A stretch of 33,464 nucleotides of DNA, taken from the IMG/VR virus record IMGVR_UViG_3300047195_000411, positions 1 through 33,464 of that record. One strand, 5' to 3'. Origin of the DNA: a virus. The position numbers were made by a program, and so were the translations under genes. Each line of letters opens with the position of its first letter. The first letter of the stretch is position 1. The notes under the pieces are model-generated. The model worked only from the letters and a program-made list of their open reading frames with translations, did not search any database and was not told the DNA's origin. Positions 2,740 through 27,527 of the stretch are shown in pieces.

Positions 2740-5096
2740 TGTCTGTCGATGCTAAGTCCCGGCTAAAAGATATTGTTGACTCTTATCTTGAAAAAGATGG
2801 GGGGTCTGCAATTGACACAGGGATCGTGGCATCCCACCTGGCACAGATGCGACTGTTTGGCATCCGTCAAGGTGTTGAGTTTTTTCCAGCGCAAGATAAT
2901 TTTGGAAATCAACGGAAAGACTTTATTGATCGTGTAATCAAATACAACCAACTTGATACACGCCTTGATTCCATCTGGGACTATTTCCTTTGCGATGGTC
3001 AAGGCTTGTTTTACATTCGTCCCACCAAAAACAACTATCGTCTTTATTATTTCCGTAAGCACGAGTATCGTACTTTCTACAATATTGACGGTGAGTTAGA
3101 TGAAGTTGTAATCATTTACAGCTATAAAGTCCGTCAAGGCATGGGCTTTCAGCAAGATATTGGAACCAGTGGTTTATCTGGTCCAGCAACAATGGGTGGT
3201 CAAGGTGTCAAACGTTATATCAGACTTTCAATTAAACGTAAAACAATTGAGGAAACTCACTCAGAAGGTGAGATTTCATTTGATACAAACTATCAGGCAG
3301 TACCAGGAAAAACCAAAACTTTTAAAAACACACTAGGTTTCATTCCTTGTGTTGAAATCTTTAATAATCCCAAAGGTTTTTCTACTGAAGGTGTTGGTGA
3401 ATTTGATGCATTAGCCAATCATATTTGCACGCATGATGAAATGGTTCGGACCATGCGTAAGAACGTTCAGTTCTTTGGTAATCCAACTCTGCTTTCGTCA
3501 CGCCCCAAGACTGACCTAATGGAATCAGGTAGTGATTCTGTTGTGCAACGTCCGTCTATTGCGGCCAACTCTGGATTTGGCAGCATGGGTTCATTAAGTC
3601 GTTCTACTTTTAAACAAGATCCAATTAGTCGCGGTGTTGACGGACAGATTCGTGTACCACGCGTCATCGCAAACCTGGAACCAAACGACCGAGTTGGTTA
3701 CATTGTTCCAGATGCAATTACTGGAGATCAAAATAGTTTTGCTCGCCAGTATCGGGAAGAAATCAGAACAGCGCTTGGCGGTGTTGATGAACTTTCAATT
3801 TCAGCTGGCGTAACCGCAACAGAGTACAAATCATTATTTGGTCGCGTATCAGCAACATCAAAGAAAAAAGCAAACGCAATTTATACCTACGGTATCTCCA
3901 GGTGTTTAGAACTGATTATTTATCAGGAAGAACGTTTGTTCCGTGAAACGTTAGCCGCAGCAGCAGGACTTGAAAAGCCCTTGGAACTACCTGAAACAGC
4001 AGGTCCACAAGATGTTGCTATGTACGAAGATGCAATGGCTGCATTTGAGGATCGTGTCAAACAATTGATGATGGCGTGTCTTAAGACCCAACAAATTCCG
4101 CCCGGTGTTTTAGGCCTTATCCCTGACGGTGACGTTACAATGTTGTGGCGTTGGTTGGGTCCTGTTTATGAGGACTCTACTCAAGACGTGCTAAACAACT
4201 CAATTGTTGTAAGAAACTTACAAGAATTAGGTGTTGATAGCATTGAAGCACTGAAATACCTCTTCCCGTCTAAGACGGATGAAGAAAGGGCCGGGATGCT
4301 ATCAGGCTTCCCATTCAGGATGGTGGGTGAACTACAGAATGCATATTCTCAGTTTGCTCGCCTTGTGGGGGGAATGATGCAGACCCCTCACCCGCAATCA
4401 CCGGATTTACCGATGGCTGCGGATCCGAGATTGGATTTAACTCCATATCTGTATCGCACTTTAGAAGCTCTACAAAAGGAGATGAGTTATGCAGGACGCT
4501 ACCGTCCAATCGATCCCACAGACGAGCCAAGCACCAGTGGCAGTGGCACCGAGCAGCTACGTGGTGGCAGCACCGCAAGCAGCCCCGGTCAACTACCAGG
4601 CAGCGCCCCAGGCTTATCAAGTGGGTACGAGTTACCCCCAAGCGGTACCTCAGGCAGCCCCCAGCTACCAATCAGCCCCTACTCAGTACGCCCCCCAATC
4701 CCAACCGGCGGTGGACTCGGCGGGGAATCCCTGGGAATCGGCGTTCAACAAGGTGGTGAACCTGCTGAGCGCACCAGTCCAATCCCCGTTCCAGGGTCAA
4801 CAGTCAGCTCCGACGACAGCGTATACCCCGGCCAACTACGGGTACAGCAACCCAGCTACGCAACAATCGGGTCAGCAGACCTCGCATCCCAGCCAGGCAT
4901 ACTCGCCCAGCTCTTCCCAAACCTCTTCGACTCCCTCCTTGGAGCAGCTCGCGGACCTGGTGGGAATGAGCCAGGAAAGCCGTCAGGTGATGGACGCGTT
5001 CGGGATCGAAGCTCCGGCAGTCCTGAACAACTACGCCCTGGAACTGGAAGGAATGCTGGACAGCGCCGTCCAGTGGGGAAACCGGGCCGCAAGTAA
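2739..5096 (+). CDS. Portal protein with a long overprinted C-terminal tail
   Basis: The portal forms the dodecameric gate through which DNA enters and leaves the head. Evidence: place between terminase and capsid genes, size of the globular part (about 583 residues, in the family range) and an alpha/beta N-terminal region with aromatic-rich strands (DYFLCDGQGLFYIRP and LYYFRKHEYRTFY), followed by helical stretches such as TRTMRK-like and ATSKKKANAIYTYGISRCLE that fit the stem and clip. From about residue 584 the sequence changes to Ser/Gly/Pro/Gln-rich and ends in an Arg/Lys-rich tail. That last 200-residue part lies in a different frame over the start of the next gene. No stop exists before 5094..5096, so the tail should be made unless there is a sequence error. 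Confidence 0.85.
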   Translation: MSVDAKSRLKDIVDSYLEKDGGSAIDTGIVASHLAQMRLFGIRQGVEFFPAQDNFGNQRKDFIDRVIKYNQLDTRLDSIWDYFLCDGQGLFYIRPTKNNYRLYYFRKHEYRTFYNIDGELDEVVIIYSYKVRQGMGFQQDIGTSGLSGPATMGGQGVKRYIRLSIKRKTIEETHSEGEISFDTNYQAVPGKTKTFKNTLGFIPCVEIFNNPKGFSTEGVGEFDALANHICTHDEMVRTMRKNVQFFGNPTLLSSRPKTDLMESGSDSVVQRPSIAANSGFGSMGSLSRSTFKQDPISRGVDGQIRVPRVIANLEPNDRVGYIVPDAITGDQNSFARQYREEIRTALGGVDELSISAGVTATEYKSLFGRVSATSKKKANAIYTYGISRCLELIIYQEERLFRETLAAAAGLEKPLELPETAGPQDVAMYEDAMAAFEDRVKQLMMACLKTQQIPPGVLGLIPDGDVTMLWRWLGPVYEDSTQDVLNNSIVVRNLQELGVDSIEALKYLFPSKTDEERAGMLSGFPFRMVGELQNAYSQFARLVGGMMQTPHPQSPDLPMAADPRLDLTPYLYRTLEALQKEMSYAGRYRPIDPTDEPSTSGSGTEQLRGGSTASSPGQLPGSAPGLSSGYELPPSGTSGSPQLPISPYSVRPPIPTGGGLGGESLGIGVQQGGEPAERTSPIPVPGSTVSSDDSVYPGQLRVQQPSYATIGSADLASQPGILAQLFPNLFDSLLGAARGPGGNEPGKPSGDGRVRDRSSGSPEQLRPGTGRNAGQRRPVGKPGRK
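4476..4483 (+). promoter_or_regulatory. Ribosome binding site inside the portal gene
   Basis: AAGGAGAT, a near-complete anti-16S match, lies 5 bases upstream of ATG 4489 inside the portal reading frame. It is one of the best ribosome sites in the window and is the main reason to accept an internal start for the overlapping scaffold-like gene. Confidence 0.8.
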
Positions 5097-5457
5097 CATC
5101 GAAGGTTACGCCAACTTTGCTGTTAACGAGCACCAGGAGAACCTGGCCTACAACGAAATTCTCACCAACCCCGATGTTCTCAGTGATTACACGCTGAAGT
5201 TCTTCGGTCCTGAAGGTCCGTACCCCGTGTACGAAAACGAAGCTCAGCTTGAGACTCGTGGTTATCCCACCGAGCAAATGCAAGCACCTGTCATGGGTCA
5301 GTTCCCTGCACCTCCTGCAGCTGCTGCTCCACAGATGCCCGAGAACTTCTGGGGCGGTTTCAACGAAACGATGGCACGTGATCCCCAGAATGCTTGGCGC
5401 ATGCTGAATCAAGCTCAGCCTGGCACCGTTGCAAACAAACTGTTTGTGATGGAGTAA
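4489..5457 (+). CDS. Probable scaffolding / head-assembly protein
   Basis: A 322-residue protein located between portal and capsid genes, the usual site of scaffolding proteins. Residues 1-145 are low complexity (Pro, Ala, Gln, Ser, Tyr); residues about 150-235 are helical and acidic (LEQLADLVGMSQESRQ, then ALELEGMLDSAVQWGNRA); the end again has Pro/Ala/Met-rich linkers and a helix with NAWRMLNQAQPGT. This helical core with disordered arms fits a scaffold, whose members share little sequence. It starts inside the portal gene with a strong ribosome site and overlaps it by 608 bases in the +1-type alternative frame; codons here look typical, with many G/C third positions. Role is positional inference. 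Confidence 0.72.
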   Translation: MQDATVQSIPQTSQAPVAVAPSSYVVAAPQAAPVNYQAAPQAYQVGTSYPQAVPQAAPSYQSAPTQYAPQSQPAVDSAGNPWESAFNKVVNLLSAPVQSPFQGQQSAPTTAYTPANYGYSNPATQQSGQQTSHPSQAYSPSSSQTSSTPSLEQLADLVGMSQESRQVMDAFGIEAPAVLNNYALELEGMLDSAVQWGNRAASNIEGYANFAVNEHQENLAYNEILTNPDVLSDYTLKFFGPEGPYPVYENEAQLETRGYPTEQMQAPVMGQFPAPPAAAAPQMPENFWGGFNETMARDPQNAWRMLNQAQPGTVANKLFVME

Positions 5458-5461
5458 GGAC

Positions 5462-6052
5462 ATGGCACGTGTTAAGCTTGCCTCCCTTGGTCAAACACGT
5501 CCCTTGCTTGCGTATGGAGTTCCCGCTGCTGCCGGTCTGGCAGTCGGCGGGGCTCTTGCTGCTCAAGGTGAAGATCCCGGTTCTGCCGCATTAGGTGGAA
5601 TTGCCGGTGCTCTTGGTGCCCGTGGTGCTTTAGGCGCTGCTCGTATGGCTGGTAAATATGCACCAGCCATTGCTGAAAAGATGCAAGGTGCGATTGCCCC
5701 AGCTGGTAAAGCTGTGCGGTCCGCTATGGAAGCCGCCCCTGAAGGTGGCCAACGTGCTGCAGCCCTTGGTGGAATGCGTAATGTTCTTGCAGGTGCTTAT
5801 CGCTCTGCCGGAAATGTTTCGCCCGGCCTTGTTCAAAAAACAGCTGCTGCCGCTGCTGTTCCTACTGCTGCAGCCCTTGCCGGTTTAGGTGGTGTTGCCG
5901 CTGGTGCTATTCCTGGTGCTTTAGGTATGCCTGGGTTTCAACAACAACAACAAGCTATGCAAATGCAAGAAGCAGTTGTAGATCCTGAATCGTATGGTTC
6001 AAGTAACTCCGCAGGCGCTCGTTACAAAACGCCAACCTTGCAGTACCTGTAA
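5462..6052 (+). CDS. Ala/Gly-rich hydrophobic virion-type protein
   Basis: A 196-residue protein starting 4 bases after the previous stop, with a GGAGTAAGG ribosome site. Alternating Ala/Gly/Leu-rich hydrophobic stretches (around residues 20-35, 40-62 and 130-158) and a Q-run from a CAA repeat near residue 160 are seen. The composition resembles small phage internal or ejected proteins that insert in membranes, or a head-associated minor protein. Position just before the capsid gene supports a virion role. No family recognised. Confidence 0.72.
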   Translation: MARVKLASLGQTRPLLAYGVPAAAGLAVGGALAAQGEDPGSAALGGIAGALGARGALGAARMAGKYAPAIAEKMQGAIAPAGKAVRSAMEAAPEGGQRAAALGGMRNVLAGAYRSAGNVSPGLVQKTAAAAAVPTAAALAGLGGVAAGAIPGALGMPGFQQQQQAMQMQEAVVDPESYGSSNSAGARYKTPTLQYL

Positions 6053-6157: not shown

Positions 6158-7318
6158 GTGTTTATTGATAACGATTTTCCAAAAATCCTAGGGGCCGAAC
6201 TCTATCGTCCCCACCCTGCATACATTGCTGAGATGGCAGTGGAGCCCGTGGTTGTCCACGACTTCACTCGTCAGCCTGGTCAAACCGTGCAGCTCGACCG
6301 CTATAAGTTCTGGGGAACCCCTGGTACCAAGGACAGCCGCGAGCGTATTTCTGATCAGACCATTGGTAGCGCCAACAGCCGTAACATCACCAAGGAGAAA
6401 GTCCTTGTGGTGCTTAAGGAATACACCGGTCCTGCAGACCCCGGCGATCCGACTCAGCCTTCGACTTTCAAGATTGCTCGCGAAACCCTGATCACTGCTC
6501 AGCGCATGCTGCTTGACAGCGGCAACCTGAACATGTTCCACCAGTCCATCGGTAGCCTCACGCTGCTGGATGACTATCGCCGGTGGCGTGACCGCGTCTT
6601 CATTGACGAACTTGCTAAAGCAGAAGCCAATGGTGTTGCTTCTACAACCCAAGGCGGTTACTACTTCCCTGGTGGTAAGGTCAAAGCCGCTAACGGTTCT
6701 ATTTCTTACACCAGCACTGAGTACACCGCTGATCTTCAGCAGTTTTCTGTTCGCACCGACCTTTTGACTGTTGTCAAGGACCTTCGCAAGCGTAACGTTC
6801 CCACTTACGCTGATGGTCTGTATCGTTGTATTTGCGATCCCACCTTCATGATGCACCTGCGTCGTGATCCTGACTTCCGTGAGATTGCTCGTTACGCTGG
6901 TAACCCTGGCCAAGGCATGTACATGGGTAACCCCATGATGCCTAATAACTCCAGCTTCTACATGGGTCCTCAAGCTGGTCAAGGTTATTTCCTTGCTGGC
7001 GAACCTGTTATGCCTACTGGCGTTCAGTTTGAAGGTGTGAAGTTCTTCGAATCGACCAACTTCCCCAACCGCACTATTAGCGCTACTTTTAACGCTAGCA
7101 CCTACGCTAACCAAGAAATTGCACAAGGTTATTTCTTTGGTCCTCAGGCAATCGGTGTTGGTATCGGTGGCCCTAACGCCCAGGTGCTCATCAACAATAA
7201 CGATGACTTCAGCCGCTTTATCATCTTGATTTGGCAGCTGTACGCAGGTTTTGAAATCTTGAACAAAGATTTTGTCACCACTGCATTTAGTTTCGTTTCT
7301 GATGACGGCGCTATTTGA
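6158..7318 (+). CDS. Major capsid protein (N4-gp56-like)
   Basis: The 386-residue protein has the size and position of a major capsid protein. Features that resemble the N4 gp56-type capsid family: an N-terminal segment leading to a strand-rich region with GQTVQLDRYKFWG, a central helix-rich part (ARETLITAQRMLLDSG), and the segment YADGLYRCICDPTFMMHLRR followed by a late GVQFEGVKFFESTNFP strand that resembles the P-domain. GTG start at 6158 has a strong GGAGG site at 6143..6147, and the gene follows a 105-base spacer, the second-largest non-coding gap in the window, which suits a strongly expressed gene. Capsid role is quite sure; exact family less so. Confidence 0.85.
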   Translation: MFIDNDFPKILGAELYRPHPAYIAEMAVEPVVVHDFTRQPGQTVQLDRYKFWGTPGTKDSRERISDQTIGSANSRNITKEKVLVVLKEYTGPADPGDPTQPSTFKIARETLITAQRMLLDSGNLNMFHQSIGSLTLLDDYRRWRDRVFIDELAKAEANGVASTTQGGYYFPGGKVKAANGSISYTSTEYTADLQQFSVRTDLLTVVKDLRKRNVPTYADGLYRCICDPTFMMHLRRDPDFREIARYAGNPGQGMYMGNPMMPNNSSFYMGPQAGQGYFLAGEPVMPTGVQFEGVKFFESTNFPNRTISATFNASTYANQEIAQGYFFGPQAIGVGIGGPNAQVLINNNDDFSRFIILIWQLYAGFEILNKDFVTTAFSFVSDDGAI

Positions 7319-8200: not shown

Positions 8201-8611
8201 ATGCTTTATCAACACAGAAAAACCGGTGCTCGGGTCAAGGTTATTAGTGAGTTTGACAACGGCGATTGGCTCATGGTTGAAGACCAAGACGGTCGCCTTT
8301 TTACCGCTTACAAAACCGAATTGACTCCTGATGAAGCTGCTACTAAAAAGGTAACAACTTTACAGGTTAAAGATAAAGCAGCCAAAGAGGAAGTCCGAGC
8401 ATTCCCTCCGGAAACACGTTTGAATGTTAATTCCGCTACCCCACAGATGATCGCTGATCATATCAAAGGTATCGGTCTTAAAACTGCCCGGGAAATCAAA
8501 GACCTTCAAATGTCCTTATCGGGTGAAAGGTTTAATAACCTGGAGCAACTCAAACAAATCAAACGGGTTGATTGGGATTCTGTCTTAGCTGCTGACCTAA
8601 TTCGTGTCTAA
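8201..8611 (+). CDS. Protein with C-terminal helix-hairpin-helix (ComEA-like)
   Basis: A 136-residue protein. The N-terminal half forms a small beta domain (LYQHRKTGARVKVISEFDN then DWLMVEDQDGRLFTAYKTEL), reminiscent of an SH3-like barrel. The C-terminal half carries LNVNSATPQMIADHIKGIG and LKTAREIKDLQ, which matches the helix-hairpin-helix repeat of ComEA-type DNA-binding proteins (NVNxAxxxxLxxxxGIGxxxAxxI), with a second hairpin ending in LKQIKRVDWDSVL. These domains bind DNA backbone without sequence preference. In a head operon this suggests a neck or DNA-contact protein (inference). The gene is the last before a strong terminator. Confidence 0.75.
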   Translation: MLYQHRKTGARVKVISEFDNGDWLMVEDQDGRLFTAYKTELTPDEAATKKVTTLQVKDKAAKEEVRAFPPETRLNVNSATPQMIADHIKGIGLKTAREIKDLQMSLSGERFNNLEQLKQIKRVDWDSVLAADLIRV

Positions 8612-8629: not shown

Positions 8630-8653
8630 CCCCCGGGTAACCGGGGGTTTTTT
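8630..8653 (+). terminator. Intrinsic terminator closing the head block
   Basis: A perfect 7-base stem, CCCCCGG with CCGGGGG, around a GTAA loop, followed by six T. It starts 18 bases after the stop of the helix-hairpin-helix gene. This is a textbook rho-independent terminator, and the only clear one I see on the plus strand of the window. Confidence 0.93.
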
Positions 8654-8683: not shown

Positions 8684-9436
8684 ATGGCAGGCGGTTCTGC
8701 AATTTACTTGGGGAAAACGGGTGCAACCGGTGGTGTTACTGGAGCACACGGTCATTTCGAAGTAATTAAAGATGGCAAACGTTATGGATTGTCTCAGGCT
8801 CGCGCTGACCTTGGGCAAAAAATTCAATTTCGTTTACCAAACGAACAAGCTTGGCAACAGATGTACAGCCCTGCAGCAGGGGGTCAGTTCCGTTTAAATC
8901 CTGCTGTTGGATTGACAGAAGGCATTGGAATGCGAGCTGTGCATCCTGTAACTGGAGCAAAGAATGTTGCGCATCGCGGCGAGGACTATAACTTTCCAGA
9001 AGGTACGGACTTGCGTTTTATGGGTGGTGGAAGTGTTGCAGGATTGGCTAATGTAGGCCGTGCTGGAAACATATCAACATTACATACTGGTCCCTATAAA
9101 TTAGATGTGTTTCACATGAGCAAACTCCCTGGAGCAACATCGGCCCCAGAGTCGACAGCTCTACCAGCAGCGCCTACACTCCCTGGTGAAACACCAACAA
9201 CAAATGACACGCGCACCAAGGACATCCTTGAAGCGTTCATGTATGGAACACAATATCAACAACCACAAAAAGAAAAAACACTAGAAGAAACTTTAAAAAG
9301 TGAGTTAATTGCAGGTGCATTAAGCAATGCATTAACACCTAAAAAATCTTTTCTTTCATCTTTTGTTGGCCAACAACCTTATCTAATGGGACAAGCCGCA
9401 TCAACCTCAGACTATCTTTCTGGATATCCAGTTTGA
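8684..9436 (+). CDS. M23-type peptidase with permuted motif order
   Basis: A virion-associated peptidoglycan peptidase candidate of 250 residues. All zinc and catalytic signatures of M23 (LytM-type) enzymes are visible, but in rotated order. Near the N-terminus lies GKTGATGGVTGAHGHFEV with HxH at H22/H24, normally the last motif. Later come GMRAVHPVTG, HRGED (H97 and D101, the HxxxD metal motif), PEGTD, H134 and the FHMS motif with H144. After about residue 150 there is a Pro/Ala/Thr linker and a C-terminal helical tail. ATG 8684 has AAGG 9 bases upstream and is preferred over TTG codons at 8675 and 8678. Neighbouring virion genes and a SleB-like gene suggest a role in entry. Family assignment is by motif only. 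Confidence 0.78.
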   Translation: MAGGSAIYLGKTGATGGVTGAHGHFEVIKDGKRYGLSQARADLGQKIQFRLPNEQAWQQMYSPAAGGQFRLNPAVGLTEGIGMRAVHPVTGAKNVAHRGEDYNFPEGTDLRFMGGGSVAGLANVGRAGNISTLHTGPYKLDVFHMSKLPGATSAPESTALPAAPTLPGETPTTNDTRTKDILEAFMYGTQYQQPQKEKTLEETLKSELIAGALSNALTPKKSFLSSFVGQQPYLMGQAASTSDYLSGYPV

Positions 9437-9474: not shown

Positions 9475-9936
9475 GTGAATTTATCTGACTTCGATAAAAG
9501 TAGGGTCAGGTACCATCTAGGGTACTTCACTGTTTCCGTGCCTGCTGGTGACTATGCCAGGCTCGAAGAAGCAATGAATACCGTTCCAGATTCTTATTTT
9601 TACGATAAAATTGTTATTCAAATTGGTCGTTGTGATACGGCTGAAAAGAAAACCGAAGTTGCAACTTCTCCTTCAACTCGGTTAGAAAGTATTGCTGGTG
9701 ACGTTGATCGTACTATCAGGTCAAGTAATGCCAAGGAAGCATTAAAAGTTTGGGATGAGATTTATCTATACGAAACCAATCGTTTATCCGGTATTCTTTA
9801 CGTTCCTAATTACAAAGATCCTTTCCAAGCGCGTTATCGCTACGAGCGTTCGGGTGCAGAATTCATTCAAGCTTTACCTGGCCCAGCAGATACTGCAGTT
9901 GGTTCACGTATCTATTTAAGAGGAGTGTGTAGATAA
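9475..9936 (+). CDS. Virion protein of unknown function (connector-like position)
   Basis: A 153-residue mixed alpha/beta protein with GTG start and a clear AGGAG site about 10 bases upstream. The N-terminal part (RVRYHLGYFTVSVPAGDYARLE) and the C-terminal part (ARYRYERSGAEFIQALPGP) surround a charged helical middle with VWDEIYLYETNRL. The stop and the next start overlap as TAATG. Size and place between head genes and entry proteins suit a head-tail connector or neck protein, but no motif proves it. A TATAAT hexamer lies at 9447..9452. Confidence 0.65.
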   Translation: MNLSDFDKSRVRYHLGYFTVSVPAGDYARLEEAMNTVPDSYFYDKIVIQIGRCDTAEKKTEVATSPSTRLESIAGDVDRTIRSSNAKEALKVWDEIYLYETNRLSGILYVPNYKDPFQARYRYERSGAEFIQALPGPADTAVGSRIYLRGVCR

Positions 9937-10862: not shown

Positions 10863-10867
10863 TAAAA

Positions 10868-11548
10868 ATGGCACCTAAAACTGTACAAGAACTTTTTGGT
10901 TTAAAACCAGAAGAAGTCAACGCTTTAACCGTTCTTTCCGGATTGGAAGGATATCGTGGAGGTCGCGGAGAAGACGTAGCAGCTGTTGCTTCTAATGCGC
11001 TTGCCCGTCGTCTACATGGTGGTTGGGGCGGACGTGACATTCGTAACATTGCAACTGCCCCTGGGCAATATGAAGCAATTTACGGACGTAACATCAACAT
11101 GAATCAGCTTGCTGATCCAGCGTATGGTGCAAAAGTTTTAGGTAGTCAAGAAGAATTTGATCGCTTGCGGAACATTGTTAACGATCCAACCATGGTTGGA
11201 CAACAGTTTCAACGTTCTAAGGGAGCCATGTCCTTCCGGGGTGTTGCTGGCTACGGCAATAAAAAACCAGGAGACTATGCGCCCATTCCAGGAAAAAGTA
11301 ATTTTTACTTTGATTCAGATCCTAATGTTCTGAAGAAAGGTACAAATATTTTTGGAGCAGCAACGATTGCACAACAACCTGCTGTGATGCCGCCTTCCCC
11401 GACATCCGCACCACCCCCAGTTAACGCTCTTCTTTCCAAACTAGGACTTGCCTCCCCTGGAACGGAGGGGAAGAAAAACTTTGCACAAGAATTTGCGCTT
11501 AGTTTTATTCGGCCTTTACTTCCTAATCTTTTTGGAACTATACCGTAA
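10868..11548 (+). CDS. SleB-like cell-wall hydrolase
   Basis: A 226-residue protein whose first 160 residues look like the SleB / hydrolase-2 fold, which cleaves the glycan of peptidoglycan as a lytic transglycosylase. The markers are LSGLEGYRG with candidate catalytic E27, followed by GEDVAAVASNALARRL (N43, R47), an APGQYEAIYG segment and the late FRGVAGYGNK, then GKSNFYF. The rest is a Pro-rich linker with a helical tail (FALSFIRPLLPN), probably a virion anchor. ATG 10868 is chosen over an upstream in-frame start at 10799, which would lie inside the preceding gene; GGAAGG lies about 11 bases upstream. Together with the M23-like protein it likely digests the wall at entry. Confidence 0.75.
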   Translation: MAPKTVQELFGLKPEEVNALTVLSGLEGYRGGRGEDVAAVASNALARRLHGGWGGRDIRNIATAPGQYEAIYGRNINMNQLADPAYGAKVLGSQEEFDRLRNIVNDPTMVGQQFQRSKGAMSFRGVAGYGNKKPGDYAPIPGKSNFYFDSDPNVLKKGTNIFGAATIAQQPAVMPPSPTSAPPPVNALLSKLGLASPGTEGKKNFAQEFALSFIRPLLPNLFGTIP

Positions 11549-14303: not shown

Positions 14304-19217
<4,914 letters not shown>

Positions 19218-20653: not shown

Positions 20654-22273
20654 ATGACAAAACCTTGTTTGCATCTGATTGGCATTTTCCACACCCAAGC
20701 AACAAGTGAATACTCACATTGTGCATTCACAGGGAAAGCAATGCGCTTTCCCAAGATGATGCAGGCATATGGTTATGACGTTATTGAATACAGCAACGAA
20801 GGTAGCGAGGCGGGCGCAACCGAACACGTACCCATTCTGAGTAAACAAGAATTTCAAAAACTTTATGGAGATCGGAAGAAAACCGATTTTCATGGTGATG
20901 ATGCAACGGTTGGCAGCGAAGGACACCAACTATTTGAAGAACGTTTAATTGTTGAGTTACGTAAACGCTTGCAGAAAGAAGATATTATCTGCCATCCGTT
21001 TGGTCATGCGCATCAAATATTGATGGACAAGTTTCCGTCCCACCATCATGTTGAAACCGGCATTGGTTATCCCACGTTGATGCCCAATAGCTTTCGTATT
21101 TTTGAAAGCTATGCCTGGATGCATTACCACCAGGGGGAAGAGAAACGTCAAGGCCGTAACTATGAGTGGGTTGTGCCTAACTACTTTGACCTAGACGAGT
21201 GGGAACCATCTTACGAACCAGGGAAATATCTTGCTTTCTTAGGTCGTATCTGTTCCGTCAAAGGAATGGACACGATTAAAGAAATTGCCAACTACAGCCC
21301 TTGGCCAATAGTTCTTCATGGTCAAGGTGATCCAACCCCTTGGGAACATCCAAACATTGAATACCGTGGACCTATTACAGGCAAAGCACGTTCTGAATTT
21401 TTACGCAATGCACGGGCAGCGTTGATGCCAACAAACTTCACTGAGCCTTTCGCTGGCAGTGGCGTTGAAGCCATGTTGTGTGGCACACCGTTAATTGCTG
21501 TTGACTATGGAGCATTTACTGAAACTATCCTCGATGGCGTAACAGGTTTTCGCTGCCATACCCTGCAAGACTGGATTGATGCCATCGATAACGCAGGAGA
21601 CCTTTCTCGACAGATGGTGGCAAATGTTGCTAGGTCCAGGTACAGCCTAGAAGCCTGCGGTAAAAAATACGACAAAATATTTCAAGACATTAACAACCTT
21701 AACAGAAAAGGTTGGTATCAGCTCCGCGAATCAACAGAGATTAACTACACATATCTTCATAATGAGGAGTTGCCTTTTGCCAGGCGTTTAACAAGCTGGA
21801 TCAAAGACAATTTAAATCCCCAACAAGTTTTAGATCTTGGTTGTGGTCCAGGTACATACGTCGAGTGTTTCCGTGACCAGGGAGTCAATGCCTTTGGTTA
21901 TGATACTGATGTTCGTGTTGAAGGCAAAGATTATCTCGTTTGTAAAAGTTTGTTTGATGTAGAGGAAACAGGCGATGTAGTCCTTTGCATGGAAGTAGCG
22001 GAACACATCGAGTCTTCCAATAATTTGAAAATTGTTGAAGCAATGACAAAAACCCTGGAGCCAGAAGGACTTTTAATATGGACAGCCGCCAAACCAGGCC
22101 AAGGTGGGGTTGGTCACATTAACTGCCAAACCAAAGATTACTGGGAAGATCTATTTGCGACGCAACCATTACAACGCTGCCTAGACGTTGAAGAACAGTT
22201 AGCGGATGCCATGAAAGCTGGTTACCACATGGGCTGGTTTGTACAAAACCTATTGGTTTACAAACGTAATTAA
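20654..22273 (+). CDS. Glycosyltransferase (GT4-like) fused to SAM methyltransferase
   Basis: A 539-residue two-domain enzyme. Residues about 1-350 resemble a GT-B glycosyltransferase of family 4: KYLAFLGRICSVKGMD at 191-206 (sugar-nucleotide site) and EPFAGSGVEAMLCGTPLIA at 264-282 with the EX7E pair E264/E272. Residues about 385-539 form a class I methyltransferase with motif I VLDLGCGPGT (392-401), GYDTD after the next strand, and CMEVAEH as motif IV. Such enzymes modify glycans, either on the virion (fibres are adjacent) or on the host surface. It follows the adhesin cluster and precedes a minus-strand terminator. Fusion is certain from the single frame; acceptor substrate is unknown. Confidence 0.83.
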   Translation: MTKPCLHLIGIFHTQATSEYSHCAFTGKAMRFPKMMQAYGYDVIEYSNEGSEAGATEHVPILSKQEFQKLYGDRKKTDFHGDDATVGSEGHQLFEERLIVELRKRLQKEDIICHPFGHAHQILMDKFPSHHHVETGIGYPTLMPNSFRIFESYAWMHYHQGEEKRQGRNYEWVVPNYFDLDEWEPSYEPGKYLAFLGRICSVKGMDTIKEIANYSPWPIVLHGQGDPTPWEHPNIEYRGPITGKARSEFLRNARAALMPTNFTEPFAGSGVEAMLCGTPLIAVDYGAFTETILDGVTGFRCHTLQDWIDAIDNAGDLSRQMVANVARSRYSLEACGKKYDKIFQDINNLNRKGWYQLRESTEINYTYLHNEELPFARRLTSWIKDNLNPQQVLDLGCGPGTYVECFRDQGVNAFGYDTDVRVEGKDYLVCKSLFDVEETGDVVLCMEVAEHIESSNNLKIVEAMTKTLEPEGLLIWTAAKPGQGGVGHINCQTKDYWEDLFATQPLQRCLDVEEQLADAMKAGYHMGWFVQNLLVYKRN

Positions 22274-26837: not shown

Positions 26838-26838
26838 T

Positions 26839-26862
26839 TGGTGATAACTATTGTTATCACCA
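26839..26862. promoter_or_regulatory. Perfect 10-base inverted repeat at the lysozyme start
   Basis: TGGTGATAAC and GTTATCACCA form perfect 10-base arms around a TATT loop. The repeat fills the gap between the endonuclease stop and the lysozyme ATG and includes the A of ATG 26862. As RNA it would hide the start; as DNA it could be an operator. There is no T-tract, so it is not an intrinsic terminator, and no Shine-Dalgarno sequence is visible beside it. Confidence 0.8.
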
Positions 26863-27527
26863 TGGCAGATTTTTCGCATGCCATTAATCTCATTCGTAAA
26901 TACGAAGGGTTTAATGAAAAAGCTTATGCCAATCCTGTAACTGGCGGAGAACCTTACACGCTTGGATACGGCACACAATTTTATCCAGACGGTGCGCCAG
27001 TAAAGAAAGGACAGTATTGCAGTAAAGAAAAAGCACTGGAGTATTTATTTCATGAAATCAATGTCATTGATGGTCAGCTTTCCAAGTTGAACATTGGTTT
27101 AGATGACTGCATGCGCCAGGCGTTGATTTCATTTATTCATTCGGTAGGTTGGGAAGCATTCCTTTACAGTCGTGTGATCGACTGTATTGAACATGAAGAT
27201 TTAGCCGCAGTAACAGAGGAAATTGTTCGCTGGATTTTTGATGAAGACCATCGAGCTATTGGTAGCCTCTTGGATCGTAGACGAGAAGAAGTAAATTTAT
27301 TCCTCCAGGAAGTAGATGCCACCCCTGCTTTTCTTACTGATATTTTGCTTGCTGCCTTTCGGAATTACACAGCAGCACCCAAGCAGGTACAGGCAATTAG
27401 GCAACTGGAAGAACGAATCAGTCCGTATGTGTTGTCCGAATTTGCCAACGCTTTTCGCACTGATGATGCCGATTGGGTCGATTATCCTTCCGATGAGCTA
27501 GATTCTTTATTTAACAGCTGGTCTTAG
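26862..27527 (+). CDS. Phage lysozyme, GH24 (T4-like), with altered catalytic Asp
   Basis: A 221-residue GH24 endolysin candidate that would cut the MurNAc-GlcNAc bond at lysis. KYEGF gives catalytic E15 and PYTLGYGT gives T33 with the typical GYGT turn. The residue at E+9, normally Asp (PDP in relatives), is Asn here: ANP with N24. The rest follows the family: DGAPVKKG, SKEKALEYL, and the late FIHSVGWEAF, then LLDRRREEVNLFL. An extra 70-residue C-terminal part with LEERISPYVL may target the enzyme. ATG 26862 directly follows a perfect inverted repeat; a TTG at 26838 is also in frame. No signal peptide is visible, so release would need a holin. Confidence 0.85.
   Translation: MADFSHAINLIRKYEGFNEKAYANPVTGGEPYTLGYGTQFYPDGAPVKKGQYCSKEKALEYLFHEINVIDGQLSKLNIGLDDCMRQALISFIHSVGWEAFLYSRVIDCIEHEDLAAVTEEIVRWIFDEDHRAIGSLLDRRREEVNLFLQEVDATPAFLTDILLAAFRNYTAAPKQVQAIRQLEERISPYVLSEFANAFRTDDADWVDYPSDELDSLFNSWS

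Follow-up and report, generated by a model that had tools for sequence, protein, structure and literature searches.

How the motifs of the 8684..9436 protein are ordered

Does a peptidase fold occur in nature with its chain ends moved to another place? A single gene of the window analysed here, a virus record of 33,464 bases, raises this question. The window comes from a cyanobacterial virus. Its ORF at 8684..9436 encodes a protein with the motifs of an M23 zinc peptidase, arranged in an unusual order; the original prediction gave the ORF, its coordinates and the motif positions correctly.

The M23 active site comprises an H(x)nD motif, an HxH motif and a histidine situated about 30 residues ahead of HxH (PMC9662197). 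All three are present in the window protein, as H97xxxD101, H22xH24 and H144, the latter corresponding to the histidine ahead of HxH. Along the chain, they appear as TG..H22xH24, R84..HPVTG, H97xxxD101 and H144. The TGATGGVTGAHGHFEV block constitutes the N-terminus and is followed by RAVHPVTG, H97RGED101 and FH144MS; the new C-terminal end of the M23 domain comes right after FHMS. Whereas canonical members have the order HxxxD, His, HxH, here HxH comes before HxxxD, and we therefore class the protein as a permuted variant of M23 rather than a standard member. The features of the gene are as follows.

8684..9436, + strand: predicted circularly permuted M23 peptidase with a C-terminal tail, 250 residues; 46 distinct sequences keep the order
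8708..8770, + strand: residues 9-29, the GKTGATGGVTGAHGHFEV region of the displaced C-terminal M23 block; the Pfam match pairs M23 positions 69-93 with residues 9-33
8747-8749, + strand: H22, predicted to activate water; invariant in 28 sequences
8753-8755, + strand: H24, predicted Zn ligand; H or D in 28 sequences, Asp in the S-EIV1 subfamily
8771..8914, + strand: junction, from the residues after HFEV into the first M23 strands, residues 30-77
8915..8959, + strand: TEGIGMRAVHPVTGA block, residues 78-92; R84 invariant, H87 variable
8972..8986, + strand: HRGED, with H97 and D101 as predicted Zn ligands; invariant in 28 relatives, matches HNGTD of ShyA and VC0503
9083..9085, + strand: H134, variable (24 of 28 have Q or R), not required for the active site
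9110..9121, + strand: FHMS with H144, predicted second catalytic histidine (equivalent of LytM H260); invariant
9200..9433, + strand: C-terminal tail, about residues 173-250; helices predicted at low confidence, proposed virion anchor
8630..8647, + strand: terminator-like hairpin directly 5' of the ORF, separating it from the previous gene

The histidines of the protein are six in all: 22, 24, 87, 97, 134 and 144. Across the 250 residues, a canonical HxH is therefore missing beyond H144, as is an HxxxD ahead of H22. With just six histidines, the protein holds no second canonical M23 copy, and none is present in the window either. Truncation of the N-terminus appears unlikely, because the terminator-like hairpin sits just 5' of it; the hairpin is weak evidence by itself, with two such sites found against 1.9 expected in shuffled sequences.

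The permuted order is real, as first proposed. It is shared by the window protein, its relatives on viral contigs and phage S-EIV1, and the best M23 scores are obtained by doubling or rotating the chain.

Profile searches with native, doubled and rotated chains

Against the Pfam M23 profile (cut-off 28.7 bits), the native protein scores 17.8 bits at full length and 19.7 bits as a core, with a match confined to residues 9-33. The doubled core, a comparison suggested by the original prediction, reaches 33.0 bits in a single match that crosses the junction (97-193, profile 3-93): above the cut-off, M23 similarity spans the whole domain. A wrong rotation of the core gives 13.2 bits. The core simply re-ordered at the chosen cut scores 21.7 bits over profile positions 3-93, below the doubled core because the missing VkxG hairpin is lost from the alignment. 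Two relatives, L017 (30.3 bits) and L020 (33.8 bits), clear the cut-off natively, via two stretches. In NCBIfam, the top match of the window protein is the ShyA DD-endopeptidase (E=5e-8).

We scored the rotations of every core with an HMM derived from 19 canonical M23 domains. For the window protein, the score climbs from 26 to 44 bits (43.8) with an optimum at about 52-60, compared with at most 8.2 bits for shuffled sequences at their best rotation. The relative L020 rises from 49 to 77 bits, with an optimum near 52-60 as well. For the tape-measure protein (TMP) domains, the gain is from 58 to 78 bits in Acinetobacter, with the optimum at 44 of 135 residues, and from 54 to 81 bits in Moraxella, with the optimum at 44; for the S-EIV1 protein it is small (42 to 46 bits). 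Five canonical controls, each left out of the HMM when scored, have their optimum at rotation 0; the canonical control L157 scores equally at rotations 0 and 8.

Predicted fold

The AlphaFold model of the window protein, computed with 28 sequences, has block pLDDT values of mostly 89-97 over residues 11-150 and a tail of low confidence. The core of L020 was predicted with a mean pLDDT of 89 and a pTM of 0.84.

The M23 fold anticipated for this protein is recovered in VIA-align, where M23 enzymes lead for both models. The window model superposes best on ShyA (Z 5.6, rmsd 2.9, 90 residues, model 41-155 on chain 265-358) and on the zinc peptidase VC0503 (2gu1; Z 5.5, model 42-155 on 200-293), with lectins nearby at Z 5.0-5.2. 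For the L020 core, ShyA (Z 5.3) and NMB0315 (Z 5.2) precede a following row at 3.6. The similarity extends over 88-90 residues with modest Z of 5.2-5.6, the order-bound alignment missing the HxH strand.

In sequence alignments with PDB entries, the HxH end of ShyA pairs with residues 9-43 of the window protein, and that of 2gu1 with residues 11-33. The sequence matches with ShyA and VC0503 consist of two stretches each, in reversed order. At the junction, the sequence alignment with ShyA extends to residue 43 and the structural one begins at residue 41. Taken together, the sequence and structure alignments thus show two parts that complement each other in reverse order and are joined with hardly any extra linker.

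Searched against the PDB with Foldseek, the full window model has no M23 enzyme among the 50 matches listed. Foldseek follows chain order; the search was therefore repeated with the L020 core, for which ShyA ranks first (prob 0.89) and NMB0315 second (prob 0.35), with non-significant E-values for these two matches (0.11 and 0.28). Among viral structures, the best match of the window model is the BFVD entry A0A510E7V3_3 (E 1.6e-4, prob 1.00, 24% identity), which may be another permuted M23.

Predicted active-site residues and their conservation

An alignment of 28 sequences shows 14 invariant positions among the first 160, including H22, R84, H97, D101 and H144. The statement that all metal and catalytic residues are kept holds for these five; it fails for H134, which is a histidine in 4 of the 28 and Q or R in the rest. 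H134 as a catalytic residue is thereby ruled out. H87 is variable too (H in 10 of 28), and the position of H24 is occupied by H in 10 sequences and by D in 18. The equivalents of H22, R84, H97, D101 and H144, along with four glycines, stay invariant in a more divergent set of 14 sequences that includes S-TIM5 and the tape-measure domains. The core dN/dS is mostly 0.04-0.08 when calculated against relatives with unsaturated synonymous sites. Low dN/dS and invariant catalytic residues agree with the earlier judgement that the gene is not decaying.

We take H97, D101, H24 and H22 to be the counterparts of H210, D214, H293 and H291 of LytM. In the latter enzyme, H260 is a catalytic residue (PMC9662197).

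Two canonical-order M23 proteins (L068 and L069) carry HLD or HCD in place of HxH. The Asp variant is therefore independent of the permutation.

A putative hydrolase gene in the virion cluster

The genes around the permuted M23, and the more distant lysozyme, are the following.

6158..7318, + strand: major head protein (phrog_1357, E=9e-16; synteny), in the conserved cluster
8201..8611, + strand: HhH-motif protein on the left side of the hydrolase slot (Pfam HHH_3, E=9e-5, under the cut-off)
9475..9936, + strand: phrog_29158 protein, bordering the hydrolase slot on the right (E=3e-77)
10865..11548, + strand: second hydrolase slot, SleB-like by eye; S-EIV1 has Phage_lysozyme2 here
26838..27527, + strand: GH24 phage lysozyme, likely endolysin (PF00959, E=5e-16)

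Nearly all syntenic relatives that are long enough to show it have the head protein, g7347, the HhH protein, the M23 gene and the phrog_29158 gene in colinear arrangement. The two most distant ones (L052 and L057) have the M23 gene at another place in the cluster. This synteny, from the head protein to phrog_29158, bears out the assignment of the gene to a virion cluster; the gene has the position of a virion-associated lysin, inside the structural cluster and apart from the endolysin. The window belongs with the S-EIV1-like phages: its head, HhH and phrog_29158 proteins are 87%, 80% and 89% identical, respectively, and colinear.

Both flanks of the slot are well conserved. In most syntenic relatives, the HhH protein is 78-100% identical (44-45% in the two most distant) and the phrog_29158 protein 80-100%. 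The gene between them is about 32-98% identical, or has a different head on the same tail. That head is an unrecognised domain in L012; in L059, L061 and L062 it shows M15-like motifs. An HMM of this tail weakly matches the S-EIV1 Phage_lysozyme2 protein (E=0.0037).

A second slot (window 10865-11548; L013:10155-10814; L062 at about 4930-5860) holds heads of SleB-like (by eye) and Phage_lysozyme2 types on a common tail. That tail, SVSEILAPI.GGAANA....K/RS.ANTLL, resembles the tail of the first slot. The SleB-like nature first ascribed to this neighbour came from reading its motifs and was not confirmed, the window copy having no match in Pfam, NCBIfam or the PDB.

Elsewhere in the window, a 1637-residue protein (14304-19217) has long collagen-like GPTGxTG repeats followed by repeated sequence blocks, and is likely a fibre. 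At 20654-22273, within a phage structural region, a group 1 glycosyltransferase is fused to a methyltransferase domain.

Distribution of the permuted form

We recovered window-type relatives at 16 loci in two initial viral scans. Two of these loci lack the complete permuted domain: one begins within it (L006) and the other is L012, with its different head. With S-EIV1 as the query, 45 further loci were found, mostly of the HxD type. The isolate S-EIV1 itself has the same permuted gene, annotated just as 'peptidase M23 family'.

The re-ordered arrangement also occurs in other virion proteins. All 80 Acinetobacter tape-measure loci examined are permuted (15 distinct domains), as is the domain of Moraxella phage Mcat23. 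The S-TIM5 virion protein AEZ65701, reached via a structural match and an HMM search, is permuted too; its relatives are found in S-TIM61, S-TIM66 and two contigs. Among 369 gammaproteobacterial genomes, a strong match to the full model is present in the Acinetobacter centre genome alone. Nine of the other matches were inspected and are all canonical; on these matches, the permuted form does not appear to be widespread in Gammaproteobacteria. The M23 proteins of marine T4-like cyanophages (S-PM2, ACG-2014f, Sf-CH3) also have the canonical order.

In a tree of re-ordered domains, which is a weak one, the S-EIV1-type and Acinetobacter/Moraxella forms cluster (96/94) and S-TIM5 stands apart. No unpermuted or tandem ancestor was seen. 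In S-TIM5 AEZ65701 (L187:8129-11122), the stretch INVKEGDKVEIGQIIG / INVKEGDKVEIGQIIGSVQTG upstream of the permuted M23 resembles the one that directly precedes TG.HxH in M23; it may be what is left of a second M23 copy, and of a duplication that gave rise to the permutation. In the Moraxella Mcat23 tail protein (L067), VKRGTSAKAGDKYG comes after the permuted domain and is like the lost canonical VkxGxxVkaGxxIG stretch.

Comparison with known enzymes

By profile, sequence and fold, the window protein is closest to the M23 DD-endopeptidases ShyA of V. cholerae (6ue4/6u2a), VC0503-type (2gu1), NMB0315 (3slu) and MepM. It shares with them RxHPVTG, HxxxD, the catalytic His and TG.HxH. Unlike them, it has its two parts reversed, no regulatory domain and a C-terminal tail. 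With LytM and lysostaphin (M23B), the predicted residue set corresponds but the order differs; their glycyl-glycine substrate is not expected for the window protein in cyanobacteria.

S-EIV1 (KJ410740) has the same locus, permutation and kind of tail. Its protein AHV82231 is 36% identical to that of the window and has HLD where the window has HGH; the permutation is absent from the annotation of the record. The Acinetobacter (e.g. R3177) and Moraxella Mcat TMP domains are permuted as well and cluster with the S-EIV1 type when re-ordered, but they carry an HLD motif and, unlike the window protein, sit in the middle of a tape-measure protein. The permuted M23 of S-TIM5 AEZ65701 has HLHMEI, but lies in a 997-residue protein annotated as virion structural.

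Precedent for a permuted peptidoglycan hydrolase fold exists in the NlpC/P60 (YaeF/LRAT-like) peptidases (PMC6403190; Xu et al. 2011 PLoS One e22013, as cited in PMC12994826). In contrast to M23, these are cysteine peptidases of an unrelated fold.

Alternative readings and proposed mechanism

The domain could conceivably keep the permuted M23 fold without catalysis, as a structural or wall-binding part of the virion, in the manner of the degenerate LytM domains of EnvC and NlpD. The Asp that takes the place of the HxH ligand in 18 of 28 relatives is in line with this reading, and so is the canonical Pfam score of the native chain, which falls under the cut-off. We nevertheless consider it improbable: every other catalytic residue is invariant, HxD is known also from the canonical-order L068 and L069, and the same slot holds hydrolase-like heads too. 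Degenerate LytM domains, for their part, typically lose several ligands.

A domain swap within a virion oligomer, in which the N-terminal HxH hairpin of one subunit would complete the site of the next, with two chains per site, seems less probable still. Virion proteins are often multimeric, and the sequence alone accommodates a two-chain site as readily as a one-chain site. However, single-chain AlphaFold gives residues 1-155 as one confident unit, and the pTM of the L020 core argues in the same direction. As for an artefact, be it a gene fusion, a frameshift, a mis-assembly or a chance HxH-like stretch ahead of a truncated M23, its probability is negligible, and nothing speaks for it beyond the reading of this one window. 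The order recurs on independent contigs, in the isolated S-EIV1, in S-TIM5 and in every Acinetobacter TMP locus; dN/dS is low and there is no HxH downstream. Chance and assembly error are thus ruled out.

The gene very probably encodes a natural circular permutant of an M23 zinc endopeptidase of the LytM/ShyA type, predicted to be fixed in the virion by its tail and to act at entry. In such a protein, the normally last HxH strand would come first and lead almost straight into the strands that used to be N-terminal. The domain would now begin and end in the loop that runs from FHMS, the strand of the catalytic His, to the GxxG.TG strand. Once folded, the domain should keep the usual site, with Zn bound by H97, D101 and H24, and water activated by H22 and H144.

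The relationship to ShyA and MepM and the gene order point to the substrate and to the location in the virion. Most likely, the protein is a DD-endopeptidase borne by the virion on an exchangeable anchor and used to open the wall of the host at entry. Anchored to the virion probably by its C-terminal tail, it would cut cyanobacterial D-Ala-mDAP cross-links during entry, and the separate GH24 lysozyme would serve release.

Significance

M23 is among the best-studied peptidoglycan hydrolase folds, and both the fold and its use in virions are already known. A review of the family sets out the canonical site and says nothing of a permuted form (PMC9662197). Our search of the open-access literature turned up no account of a permuted M23 domain.

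A broader proposal, for which we see the balance as even, is that of a natural permuted M23 class across virion proteins of unrelated phages, namely S-EIV1-like and S-TIM5 cyanophages and Acinetobacter and Moraxella siphophages. It would have perhaps a single origin and, in the S-EIV1 group, exchangeable C-terminal anchors that take different hydrolase heads.

Order-bound tools underrate the permuted M23: the native Pfam score is under the cut-off and the domain resembles two fragments. More such phage lysins are therefore probably unannotated. The permutation is also a natural experiment on which M23 loops tolerate termini, useful for lysin fusions via the new ends. Finally, it points to a site in phage genomes where wall-degrading heads are exchanged on a constant tail.
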